22,244 nt of DNA, taken from positions 1-22,244 of IMG/VR virus record IMGVR_UViG_3300017755_000125; one strand, given 5' to 3'. Source of the DNA: a virus. Under the pieces are notes generated by a model. It searched no databases. It was not told the DNA's origin and saw only the letters and a program-made list of their open reading frames with translations. The position numbers were made by a program, and so were the translations under genes. Within the stretch, counting starts at the first letter, position 1. Every line of letters begins with the position of its first letter. Shown here in pieces: positions 6,480 through 17,421 of the stretch.

Positions 6480-7223
6480 TTAATCTCCAAATAACTCGTT
6501 AAACATTTTATTAGCATTAATTTGAGTTTGTGGACTAGTTATTTTCTTTTTAGGAGCATTACTAGTAATAGGTTTATTATTATTCCAACGTTCATACTCT
6601 ATTCTAGCAGCCATTGAATCGGCTTGATGCATTACATAACCCAAATTTGTTTTTAATTTTGCATCAGCTGACCTAGATATAAAATAAGGTTTATTAGAAT
6701 CGTCATATAACCCATCTGTTAATTTAATGCCTAACATTTCATTCCATGAAATTTCAATTCCATAATGTTGTAGTAACCAGATAGATAAATCATTTACTAA
6801 CGTAAACGGATTATTAGGATTAATTTTATATTCCTTACCTTGATTCTTTCTATGCCATTCAGAATCATTCCACTGATAAACTTCATTACCATCGCCAGGA
6901 AATCCCATCTTACCAATATCATGATTTAATGCGGTAAAGATAAGCTCTTCATATGTATAACCAGACATATCAGCTTCCATATCTGTCCATAATGTATATA
7001 CTTTTTTAGCACATTTTATTACACGCAAAACATGTTCAACATATCCGCCGGCAAATGCGTTATGAAAATGACTATAAGATGAAGCCGGTGCCATGGCCAT
7101 ACGATCTTCCATATCAGTATACATTGCTAATAATTTATCTTTACGAGTTCCTGTAAATTCTGTTTTAATTACGTTTAATAATTCGTCCCAATTTTCTGCT
7201 ATTTGATTTGCTGTTAATTTCAT
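6480..7223 (-). CDS. HD-domain metal-dependent phosphohydrolase
   Basis: A 247-residue protein with HD-superfamily motifs: H64 in GGYVEHVLRVI, the HD doublet H101-D102 in TALNHDIGKMGF, and downstream Asp and His candidates around HQADSMAARIEY (residues about 200-211). HD proteins bind metal and hydrolyse phosphoester bonds of nucleotides or signalling molecules. In T4-type phages they are usually thought to act on nucleotide pools or alarmones. The gene overlaps the ClpP stop by four bases (ATGA), so the two are translationally coupled. The C-terminus is lysine- and asparagine-rich. The substrate cannot be inferred. A toxin/antiphage role is not indicated because no partner domain is present. 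Confidence 0.82.
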   Translation of the reverse strand: MKLTANQIAENWDELLNVIKTEFTGTRKDKLLAMYTDMEDRMAMAPASSYSHFHNAFAGGYVEHVLRVIKCAKKVYTLWTDMEADMSGYTYEELIFTALNHDIGKMGFPGDGNEVYQWNDSEWHRKNQGKEYKINPNNPFTLVNDLSIWLLQHYGIEISWNEMLGIKLTDGLYDDSNKPYFISRSADAKLKTNLGYVMHQADSMAARIEYERWNNNKPITSNAPKKKITSPQTQINANKMFNELFGD

Positions 7224-7834
7224 ATTATTGTATCAATTACGTTATATTCTTTTAATTGCTCAGCGGTTAAATATAAATCTGATTTCATATTATCTTTCCA
7301 CCATGCTTGATCTTTATTAGTTTTTTCTGCTAATATATCATATATAGTTTTCTCTATATTTTTAACATTATCTAAGTACGCGGATATGTCACTCATCTTA
7401 CCTCCTAAAAAACTAGATGATTGATGAAACATGACAGTTGATCGTTTACTCATCATTCTGTTACCAGTACCACATGCTAGTATAATTGCCGCGGCAGAAA
7501 ATGCTCTACCTCTGCAGATTGTATTAACTTTAACATCTAATGATTCCATATAATCAATAATACCTAACATTTCATGAACATCACCGCCTGGCGAATTTAT
7601 CATTAAATTAACTGGTGCTTTTTTGTCTTCACGATTTTGTAGCAAACTTCGCATGCGTATAATAAGATCAGTTAATGTATGATCATTTATTTCATCATTA
7701 AGAAATATTATTGAATCATTATAATCGACTAAAGTTGCTAGTTGATTATGCAAGGCTTCATATAATGAGCCATTTTCTTCTTTTTCTTTTATATTCTGAT
7801 TCGTTTCTGGAACCTTTTCGTCGTATATACTCAT
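7220..7834 (-). CDS. clpP: ClpP-family serine protease
   Basis: A 204-residue protein, the usual ClpP length. It has NSPGGDVHEM (residues 80-89), the catalytic Ser113 in GRAFSAAAIILACG, His137 in STVMFHQSSS, and Asp186 in KSDLYLTAEQLKEY, so the Ser-His-Asp triad appears intact. ClpP forms a barrel that degrades proteins fed by an ATPase such as ClpX. No phage ATPase partner is seen nearby, so it may borrow host ClpX/ClpA or act alone. Substrate turnover during takeover, or virion-protein maturation, are both possible. It is the first gene of its operon, behind a class-1 promoter at 7856-7886, with AAAGGTAATAG before the ATG. The catalytic serine is preceded by Phe (AFS) rather than the usual Ala-Ser. 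Confidence 0.9.
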   Translation of the reverse strand: MSIYDEKVPETNQNIKEKEENGSLYEALHNQLATLVDYNDSIIFLNDEINDHTLTDLIIRMRSLLQNREDKKAPVNLMINSPGGDVHEMLGIIDYMESLDVKVNTICRGRAFSAAAIILACGTGNRMMSKRSTVMFHQSSSFLGGKMSDISAYLDNVKNIEKTIYDILAEKTNKDQAWWKDNMKSDLYLTAEQLKEYNVIDTII

Positions 7835-13481: not shown

Positions 13482-13904
13482 TTACTTGATTATAACTGGT
13501 TTAGGTGTTGCCTCTTTTGTAAATGGAATAAAGATAGACAACAAACCTTTATCCATTGTTGCTGAAATTTTTGTGATATCACATTTAGGCGAAATCTTCC
13601 AACCAAAGTTAAAAGCTCTTCTAGCAATGCCTCTGTGAATATAGTCAAACTCTTTAGGCGAATCGTATTGACCTTTGTCATAAATAACTTTCAACGTATT
13701 GTCTGCAGTTTCAATTTTGATATCGTTTTTATCGATACCAACGGCTGCAATTTCAATTATTAATCCTGCATCTGTTGTAGCAACGTCAACTGGATAGTCT
13801 GGCTTAGAATCCACATGTGATTGAAAGTCTGAATCTACAGCAAAAAAGTTTCTGAATAATAAATCGGTTGGAAATAACCGATTGTCTAAAAATAGGTTTC
13901 CCAT
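13482..13904 (-). CDS. hsp20: Small heat-shock protein, Hsp20 family
   Basis: A 140-residue protein with an alpha-crystallin domain over residues about 37-125: YPVDVATTDAGLIIEIAAVG (about 37-56), ANDTL-type core replaced by TADNTLKVIYDKG (about 66-78), and GLLSIFIPF (about 119-127), followed by a short tail. Hsp20 proteins hold unfolding proteins in solution, and homologues are common in T4-type phages of marine hosts, where they are thought to aid virion assembly. AAGGAG lies seven bases before the ATG, a strong ribosome-binding site. A class-2 (late-type) motif at 13965-13980 would give a leader of about 55 bases that includes one arm of the inverted repeat. Confidence 0.92.
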   Translation of the reverse strand: MGNLFLDNRLFPTDLLFRNFFAVDSDFQSHVDSKPDYPVDVATTDAGLIIEIAAVGIDKNDIKIETADNTLKVIYDKGQYDSPKEFDYIHRGIARRAFNFGWKISPKCDITKISATMDKGLLSIFIPFTKEATPKPVIIK

Positions 13905-16638: not shown

Positions 16639-16863
16639 CTACTTCTTCGTAAAGAATGATACCAATAGTACCAATACAACTATTCCAACAAATCCACCGT
16701 TACCAACTTGGTTGATAAGACTTGTAAGGTTAGCTACGACATCGATACCAAATACGGCACCACCAGTTAATACATACCAAAGAATCGATACTGGAATAAT
16801 TGCCATAAAAATTGACATTAGTCCTGCAAAGAAACCGGTAACGTACTTAATTACTGAATCCAT
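16639..16863 (-). CDS. Small two-helix inner-membrane protein
   Basis: A 74-residue protein with two membrane helices (residues about 10-33, FFAGLMSIFMAIIPVSILWY; and about 55-71, FVGIVVLVLLVSFF) joined by a loop with GGAVFGIDVVANLTSLINQV, ending in FFTKK. I choose ATG 16863, which has AAAAGGA upstream, over an in-frame TTG at 16896 that would fall inside the leader hairpin. Two-helix proteins of this size include holins, but holin activity cannot be shown here. It lies behind the outer-membrane protein gene, from which a structured leader separates it, and is followed by a strong terminator (16587-16617). Confidence 0.72.
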   Translation of the reverse strand: MDSVIKYVTGFFAGLMSIFMAIIPVSILWYVLTGGAVFGIDVVANLTSLINQVGNGGFVGIVVLVLLVSFFTKK

Positions 16864-16891
16864 AATCTTGTCCTTTTCTTTTTTGTTTTGT

Positions 16892-16923
16892 GGCAATATT
16901 GCCGATAATTAGGAAGCTCGCTT
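16892..16923 (-). promoter_or_regulatory. Structured leader of the two-helix membrane protein gene
   Basis: The minus strand reads AAGCGAGCTTCCTAATTA (16923 onward), two bases, then the palindrome GGCAATATTGCC (16903-16892). The order and spacing match the leader of the outer-membrane gene, with the hairpin arms GCC/GGC exchanged for GGC/GCC. The downstream AAAAGGA is the ribosome-binding site. Confidence 0.45.
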
Positions 16924-16926
16924 AAA

Positions 16927-17340
16927 TTAGAATCTAAACCCGAACCCTAATCCTAGGTTCGTAGTTTGGTCTCCTGAGTTATAAACGATCTTTGGGTCTA
17001 CATATACGTTACTACGTAATGTAAACATTTTGCCGATACCTAAACGCATGTCTTCGGTATCTAAATTTAAGTTAGATTCTAGATATACAAAATACCCTTT
17101 AACAAAGTATCTTGCATTTACATCTACATTCATTGTCTCGTCGGTTACTTCTTGCGCGATAGACGCTCCTAATACTAATGCATCTGTCACTGCATATCCA
17201 ACGGTTGGGTTAACTGACCATTCAGTCCAAGCAACGTTTGCAACGTCACCAGTTCCAATGTACCAGTCACCTTTTACTTGCGATTGTGCAGTCAATACAG
17301 ATACACATGCTAATGTAATTGTTAAAATTAACTTTCTCAT
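16927..17340 (-). CDS. Phage-encoded outer-membrane beta-barrel protein (secreted)
   Basis: A 137-residue protein with a classical signal peptide (MRKLILTITLACVSVLTAQS, cleavage near residue 18-20, with the AQ end common in Bacteroidota). The mature part consists of alternating amphipathic strands: NPTVGYAVTDALVLGASIA, NVDVNARYFVKGYFVYLESN, DMRLGIGKMFTLRSNVYVDP and LGLGFGFRF. The C-terminal Phe137 is the BAM-recognition signature of outer-membrane proteins. By analogy with Lom-type barrels of other phages it could alter the surface of the infected cell, for example to exclude other phages. It has its own class-1 promoter (17438-17469) and a structured leader. The barrel is well supported; the role is inference. 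Confidence 0.83.
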   Translation of the reverse strand: MRKLILTITLACVSVLTAQSQVKGDWYIGTGDVANVAWTEWSVNPTVGYAVTDALVLGASIAQEVTDETMNVDVNARYFVKGYFVYLESNLNLDTEDMRLGIGKMFTLRSNVYVDPKIVYNSGDQTTNLGLGFGFRF

Positions 17341-17347
17341 AAAATTT

Positions 17348-17421
17348 CTCCTATAGTTTAATTATGCCAATATTGGCTTTAATTAAGGAGCCTCCTAATA
17401 AATGTGCACGTAGGTACACAT
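17348..17421 (-). promoter_or_regulatory. Structured 5' leader of the outer-membrane protein mRNA
   Basis: On the minus strand three elements follow each other: hairpin ATGTGTAC-CTAC-GTGCACAT (17421-17402), AGGAGGCTCCT (17396-17386) and the palindrome GCCAATATTGGC (17377-17366), then the ribosome-binding site AGGAG (17352-17348). CTCCT at 17390-17386 can pair either with its neighbour AGGAG or with the ribosome-binding site, and flanking TAATTA copies can extend the second pairing. This allows two mutually exclusive folds; regulation is inferred. Confidence 0.5.

Follow-up and report, generated by a model that had tools for sequence, protein, structure and literature searches.

The window, by which we mean the whole 22,244-nt stretch of viral DNA analysed here (IMG/VR record IMGVR_UViG_3300017755_000125), carries on its minus strand a two-gene operon in which a gene for a predicted outer-membrane protein (OM) is followed, after 63 nt, by a gene for a small membrane protein (mem). 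The features of the locus are collected in Table 1. The OM product is predicted to fold into a signal-like helix and nine strands (mean pLDDT 73.9), and Foldseek returned weak matches to this model, headed by the OprF barrel domain (E 2.7e-3); the mem model, of low confidence (pLDDT 69), consists of two predicted long helices. Neither OM nor mem gave a convincing match to known protein families, and no close annotated phage relatives of the window were found, either by DNA or by the OM and mem proteins. The baseplate wedge protein encoded in the window is nearest to Microcystis phage Mel-JY01 (49.5%) and Flavobacterium phages immuto (about 41%). Elsewhere on the minus strand lie a small heat-shock protein gene (13482-13904; Pfam HSP20, E 1.9e-9) and a gene for a ClpP-like or head-maturation protease family protein (7220-7834; PHROG 94, E 1.4e-35). 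An Rfam search covering riboswitches, group I introns, ribosomal-protein leaders and other families gave no match at gathering score in the window, and in 14 relatives it returned only a permuted tmRNA, located away from the leader element described below. In the phage contigs L255 (3245-3587, plus strand) and L284 (3275-3616, plus strand), both of which have the operon, a permuted tmRNA lies about 1 kb downstream of mem (Rfam RF04321, 55.7 and 54.4 bits), with GEHVEMAMAA as the tag given by ARAGORN.

Table 1. Features of the OM-mem operon and its leaders, in order of transcription (positions in the window)
Feature	Position	Strand	Description
H0	17402..17421	-	Hairpin just upstream of X in the predicted fold, AUGUGUACCUACGUGCACAU; sequence varies by lineage
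X	17388..17399	-	5' strand of P1, ATTAGGAGGCTC; complementary to X' (MFE fold of the whole 585-nt stretch)
Anti-Shine-Dalgarno	17386..17390	-	CTCCT; overlaps X at its 3' end; L021/L025 and L258 show matched changes
H1	17366..17377	-	Hairpin GCCA-AUAU-UGGC; follows X and precedes the OM Shine-Dalgarno
OM Shine-Dalgarno	17348..17352	-	AGGAG
OM gene	16927..17340	-	ORF of 137 codons (137 aa); small outer-membrane beta-barrel predicted; sits in the P1 loop
X'	16908..16919	-	3' strand of P1, GAGCTTCCTAAT; complementary to X; begins 7 nt past the OM stop codon
H2	16892..16903	-	Hairpin GGCA-AUAU-UGCC; part of the mem leader, immediately following X'; conserved ACAAAAC comes next
mem Shine-Dalgarno-like	16871..16874	-	AGGA; predicted free
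mem gene	16639..16863	-	ORF from ATG at 16863; 74-aa membrane protein; downstream partner of OM; relatives found

Read on the minus strand, leader 1 (that of OM) has the order GGAG-GCTCCTTAATTA-AA-GCCAATATTGGC and leader 2 (that of mem) the order CGAG-CTTCCTAATTA-TC-GGCAATATTGCC, just as the first-pass annotation had described. Both hairpin cores have their sole exact matches in the window here: SSCAATATTGSS has two exact sites in the whole window and a next best match with two mismatches, and AATATTGSCNNNAATTA matches exactly at the same two leader sites only. The same annotation took the leaders for two independent, parallel 'twins', and this reading had to be given up, as the repeated part is one long-range helix whose strands flank OM. 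The sequences GAG-GCTCCT and GAG-CTTCCT resemble a direct repeat because the 5' strand of this helix, X, is nearly palindromic; in lineages where it is non-palindromic, X and its partner X' are reverse complements, which rules out a direct repeat. A repeat search of the window reports 16908-16919 and 17388-17399 as an inverted pair with 92% complementarity.

The helix of X and X', here called P1, comprises 12 bp in the window, or 17 with the predicted extension, in which X is prolonged by CTTAA at 17383-17387 and X' by TTAAG at 16921-16925, leaving a single base (16920) bulged. From end to end, P1 covers about 450 nt. In the window X ends 47 nt before the ATG, and the OM Shine-Dalgarno lies outside P1; in relatives X is found 20-56 nt upstream of the OM start and X' usually 7-20 nt past the OM stop. 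A hairpin at the position of H0 is visible by eye in many of these relatives.

A first inspection covered about 65 viral loci with OM relatives, including their OM-mem intergenic regions, and a second scan, with alignments of both proteins, yielded 92 unique operons with a long intergenic region, falling into 47 leader clusters. Testing cognate pairing against all other loci gave a blurred result, since related loci share X, and a cluster-level test was used instead. The summed cognate score of 12 representatives with different X was 314 vs 209 (sd 13) upon permutation (0/200,000), that of the 47 clusters was 1166 vs 834 (sd 25) with partners exchanged (z 13.4; 0/100,000 permutations), and the 20 clusters found after the hypothesis had been formed gave, alone, 490 vs 361 (sd 17.6; 0/100,000); these permutation counts express the specificity of cognate pairing rather than a number of independent events, as the clusters share ancestry. 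In thermodynamic folding of whole transcripts of ~600 nt, with no hint given, P1 had a probability >0.5 in 49 of 53 loci, and at least five leader-leader pairs formed in 45 of 47 clusters with the cognate leaders vs 21 of 47 with leader 2 exchanged.

The helix is also maintained through sequence change. Several lineages have non-palindromic P1 helices of their own (CGAAAGCATGTT/AACATGCTTTCG, TATCACTAGCA/TGCTAGTGATA, AATGAAGAGC/GCTCTTCATT and ACAAGGGTT/AACCCTTGT), and further X/X' pairs are unlike in sequence yet complementary (GAGAGCATT/AATGCTCTC and TAGCTAGCA/TGCTAGCTA). Among the 14 distinct sequences of the window's group, four P1 pairs have changed on both sides, as have one anti-Shine-Dalgarno pair, one H1 pair and one H2 pair (seven in total), and 96.9% of cells are paired vs at most 57.7% when slid; the composite sequences behind this count were cut by hand, and the anti-Shine-Dalgarno shares letters with X, so that the helices depend on one another to some extent. 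Among the double changes in P1, the clearest is that of L244/L256, which sets AGAGAGATC/GATCTCTCT against AGAGAGCTC/GAGCTCTCT. We then compared G·U and A·C, scored alike at first, among the interior mismatches of P1, i.e. those with two Watson-Crick pairs to either side: G·U occurs 11 times vs 2 for A·C (one-sided p = 0.011), or 9:2 when distinct contexts are counted (p = 0.033). An RNA helix is favoured over a DNA repeat because of this excess of G·U over A·C, a DNA inverted repeat having no reason to prefer coding-strand G·T. Some loci fit P1 poorly (L033, L038 and L069 and L080, the latter two lacking OM). On these comparisons, P1 is almost certainly a conserved long-range RNA helix that loops out the 137-codon OM gene.

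The hairpins flanking P1 are likewise far more frequent than chance predicts. AUNN-loop hairpins closed by A-U (or G-U) were detected in leader 1 of 20 of the 47 clusters (0.4 expected from shuffles) and in leader 2 of 35 of the 47 (0.3 expected). Stems of the H1/H2 type vary (GCCA/UGGC, GGUA/UACC, GACA/UGUC, GGCA/UGCC and UGCA/UGCA), and their arms covary. The GCC/GGC arm swap between the two leaders, initially read as a compensatory change, is not one within the window, where two separate hairpins simply differ; among relatives, compensatory change does take place within each hairpin. The wider proposal of a conserved RNA structure across both envelope-gene leaders is strongly supported, the hairpin arms keeping their pairing in relatives where they diverge. 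A double-stranded DNA palindrome serving as a protein or promoter site is disfavoured, as the loops of relatives are asymmetric (AUAA, AUUU, AUAG) and the stems paired. Two patterns tried on the relatives' full contigs did not turn up the same hairpin ahead of other genes, as a phage-wide regulon would have it: the pattern is all but restricted to the OM-mem operon and close to single-copy per contig.

Two variations on this arrangement were seen. In three loci the upstream protein differs (144-145 aa) and the hairpin is placed differently: leader 1 of L238 and L266 has an H2-type hairpin and ACAAAAC before X, not after X', and L104 has a similar hairpin before X instead of after X'. X:X' pairing is kept in all three. 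In the window's wider group, nine loci, all related (L021, L025, L076, L087, L243, L244, L256, L258 and L283), have both GGGUG in the loop of the upstream hairpin H0 and CACCC in the X'-H2 linker; CACCC is found at an unrelated place in one further locus, and the contact is absent from the window. The co-occurrence is suggestive only of a possible second long-range contact, GGGUG:CACCC.

Relatives without OM bear on which gene the element belongs to. The flanks of L235 and L200 are collinear (about 90% and 88% identity) save for 454 nt that hold OM and are missing from L235, where X and X' meet in a local hairpin with H2 behind it (fold z -3.2). OM-less L129, L126 and L122 have a hairpin directly before H2 (z -2.9, -3.4 and -2.0, respectively), those of L108 and L124 are weaker (z -1.5 and -0.7), and L069 and L080 have no hairpin in place of OM. 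Overall, most OM-less relatives that bear a Shine-Dalgarno form a local hairpin where OM would be and keep H2. Because hairpin and H2 persist when OM is absent, P1 and H2 together look like a mem leader element that carries OM in its loop. At the level of sequence, then, comparison of the loci establishes P1, H1 and H2, their covariation and their persistence without OM. Sister-class phages (L071, L031, L043, L047, L113 and similar) have the OM-mem pair with A-rich leaders that lack both a Shine-Dalgarno and P1, and their OM and mem are only about 25-40 nt apart; these leaders suggest a different host translation style.

How might P1 act on OM? It had been pointed out from the sequence that CTCCT could pair with the Shine-Dalgarno AGGAG and adopt two folds. 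This pairing is predicted by folding, and the two folds are supported both by folding and by matched changes in relatives: the Shine-Dalgarno and anti-Shine-Dalgarno change together from CUCCU/AGGAG to UUCCU/AGGAA in L021 and L025 and to CUCUUUU/AAAAGAG in L258. Since these loci carry a matched anti-Shine-Dalgarno, masking appears to be kept when the Shine-Dalgarno changes. In 21 members of the window's group the predicted freedom of the OM Shine-Dalgarno is 0.16 with X free vs 0.62 with X occupied, and it is 0.53 when the leaders are shuffled upstream of the Shine-Dalgarno; for 36 other clusters it is 0.63 in either state. By folding alone, masking before the 3' end exists is predicted for 17 of the 21 members at a shuffle fraction <=0.1, and predicted masking is weak in L004, L006, L009 and L256. 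In the window itself the computed gain is smaller: predicted freedom rises from 0.09 to 0.24 with 12 nt of X occupied and is about 0.46 in the full fold. Note that the OM site is not exceptional, because about a third of the window's genes carry AAAGG/AGGA-type sites; a link to the bS21/anti-Shine-Dalgarno control of Bacteroidia was dropped on the same ground.

We propose that the two leaders are halves of one cis-acting mRNA structure. X would pair with X' to form P1, OM and its own ribosome-binding site would lie in the P1 loop, and H2 would follow P1 and adjoin the mem ribosome-binding site. As long as X is free, CUCCU beside H1 would, in the window's group, pair with AGGAG and mask the OM Shine-Dalgarno; once transcribed, X' would capture X together with part of CUCCU, and the OM Shine-Dalgarno would be released. 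In this way, translation of OM would require that the 3' end of its own gene be complete, and it would be coupled to the mem leader being present. The best explanation overall, to which we give an even chance, is that P1 is a joint OM/mem leader structure which in the window's group is wired to the OM ribosome-binding site. That masking and release of the OM Shine-Dalgarno constitute a translational switch in this group, as the folding models suggest, we rate slightly short of even. Its fullest form, in which OM, nested in the loop of its neighbour's leader, stays untranslatable until its own 3' flank has been transcribed, such that only complete messages are read, is a positive 5'-3' switch that we put forward as a rather doubtful extension of the models. 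The switch cannot be the general function of P1, because in other groups P1 is kept although it makes no contact with the Shine-Dalgarno, and since X' starts so close behind the stop codon (7 nt), translating ribosomes may open P1.

The same elements could also serve as a structured operator, with H1 and H2 as sites for a phage or host RNA-binding protein and P1 joining the two for joint control. H1 and H2 have the same loop type while their stems vary, the ACAAAAC after H2 is conserved in sequence and the pattern is nearly single-copy per contig, all of which would suit a binding site; however, by the criterion used, H1 is missing in 27 of 47 clusters and H2 in 12 of 47 with P1 persisting, there is no candidate protein, nothing apart from the shared loop sequence pointed to a protein ligand, and folding alone could account for the conservation of loops of this size. 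We regard an operator as unlikely. A role in processing or stability, also of low probability, would have P1 stacked on H2 form an RNase III-type cut site or an exonuclease block that splits the OM message from the mem message and determines their ratio. P1 does abut H2 with short linkers, the local hairpin is kept when OM is absent, as expected of a stabiliser of the mem leader, and the 5'-3' pairing of icaR mRNA provides a substrate for RNase III (PMC3868564). At 8-12 bp, however, the helices are short for this enzyme, and processing leaves the Shine-Dalgarno covariation in the window's group unexplained.

Promoter choice could provide timing, as it does for T4 e, soc and I-TevI (PMC3014915, PMC2988022): the Shine-Dalgarno would be masked on long read-through transcripts only, and late transcripts starting past the 5' arm would be free. 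The masking predicted for the window's group is compatible with this, but the conserved X:X' pairing is not what promoter choice predicts, and a non-systematic look identified no late promoter between X and the Shine-Dalgarno; we hold this explanation to be very improbable. Least credible, and close to dismissible, is a DNA-level inverted repeat in which OM is a mobile or recombining cassette and gene conversion keeps the repeats alike without any RNA function: OM is cleanly present or absent inside the repeats (L200/L235) and the element also adjoins different neighbour genes, but besides the G·U excess, the repeats differ between lineages, X and X' stay or are replaced by another hairpin after OM loss, as DNA, H1 and H2 lack symmetry (loops AUAA and AUUU), and a non-systematic look found no recombinase beside the repeats.

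Returning to P1 as a joint leader structure, parallels to its parts exist in several well-studied systems. In the Staphylococcus aureus icaR mRNA the 3'UTR pairs with the Shine-Dalgarno region, represses translation and yields a substrate for RNase III (PMC3868564). As in icaR, sequence past the end of the ORF pairs with that gene's own 5' leader, the ORF is looped out and the pairing is predicted to bear on translation initiation. The two differ in that X' has its partner 20-50 nt ahead of the start codon and not in the Shine-Dalgarno itself, in that X' is predicted to free the Shine-Dalgarno (in the window's group) or to leave it untouched, whereas the icaR pairing represses, and in that the 3' strand here also belongs to the leader of the next gene. 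Metastable hairpins of AapA mRNAs mask the Shine-Dalgarno while transcription proceeds, and a long-distance interaction then locks the mRNA in an inert state (PMC6733600). Transient masking before the 3' end exists, followed by a 5'-3' helix, is what folding predicts for the window's group as well; yet the long-distance helix of the AapA/hok type locks the mRNA, while P1 is predicted to unlock it, the Shine-Dalgarno being freer in folding when X is occupied, and the OM-mem element comes without antisense RNA or toxin evidence.

In T4, leader hairpins mask the Shine-Dalgarno of e, soc, 49 and I-TevI, with relief by promoter choice (PMC3014915, PMC2988022). The likeness lies in phage late-type genes with the Shine-Dalgarno in an RNA helix, and I-TevI, too, resides inside a structured RNA, a group I intron. 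No long-range helix around the gene has been described there, however, and no Rfam intron family matches here. The single-stranded RNA phage MS2 exerts long-distance control through the Min Jou pairing, a contact inside the coding region that ribosomes break. There, as is proposed here, bases far apart pair across coding sequence and influence a start further downstream; the difference is that MS2 has an RNA genome and pairs inside the coding region, whereas X and X' are the two flanks of one gene of a dsDNA phage. The OM-mem element would use the same kind of chemistry as known 5'-3' pairings; what sets it apart is that the leader loop of the next gene holds an entire gene, and that the predicted sign is the opposite one. 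A description of such a gene-in-neighbour's-leader-loop architecture was not found in the open-access papers searched, and the structure is apparently an undescribed conserved RNA architecture of uncultured marine phages.

Long-range 5'-3' pairing is known from a handful of bacterial mRNAs, where it mostly acts as a brake. Comparing gene flanks in viral metagenomes reveals long-range mRNA structure of this kind that local RNA scans miss. Here the pairing is widespread in uncultured marine phages, with strong covariation and with natural gene-absence alleles that keep the hairpin. OM lends itself readily to testing as a gene housed in the leader loop of another. In the window's group, completion of the transcript may be what permits OM to be translated.
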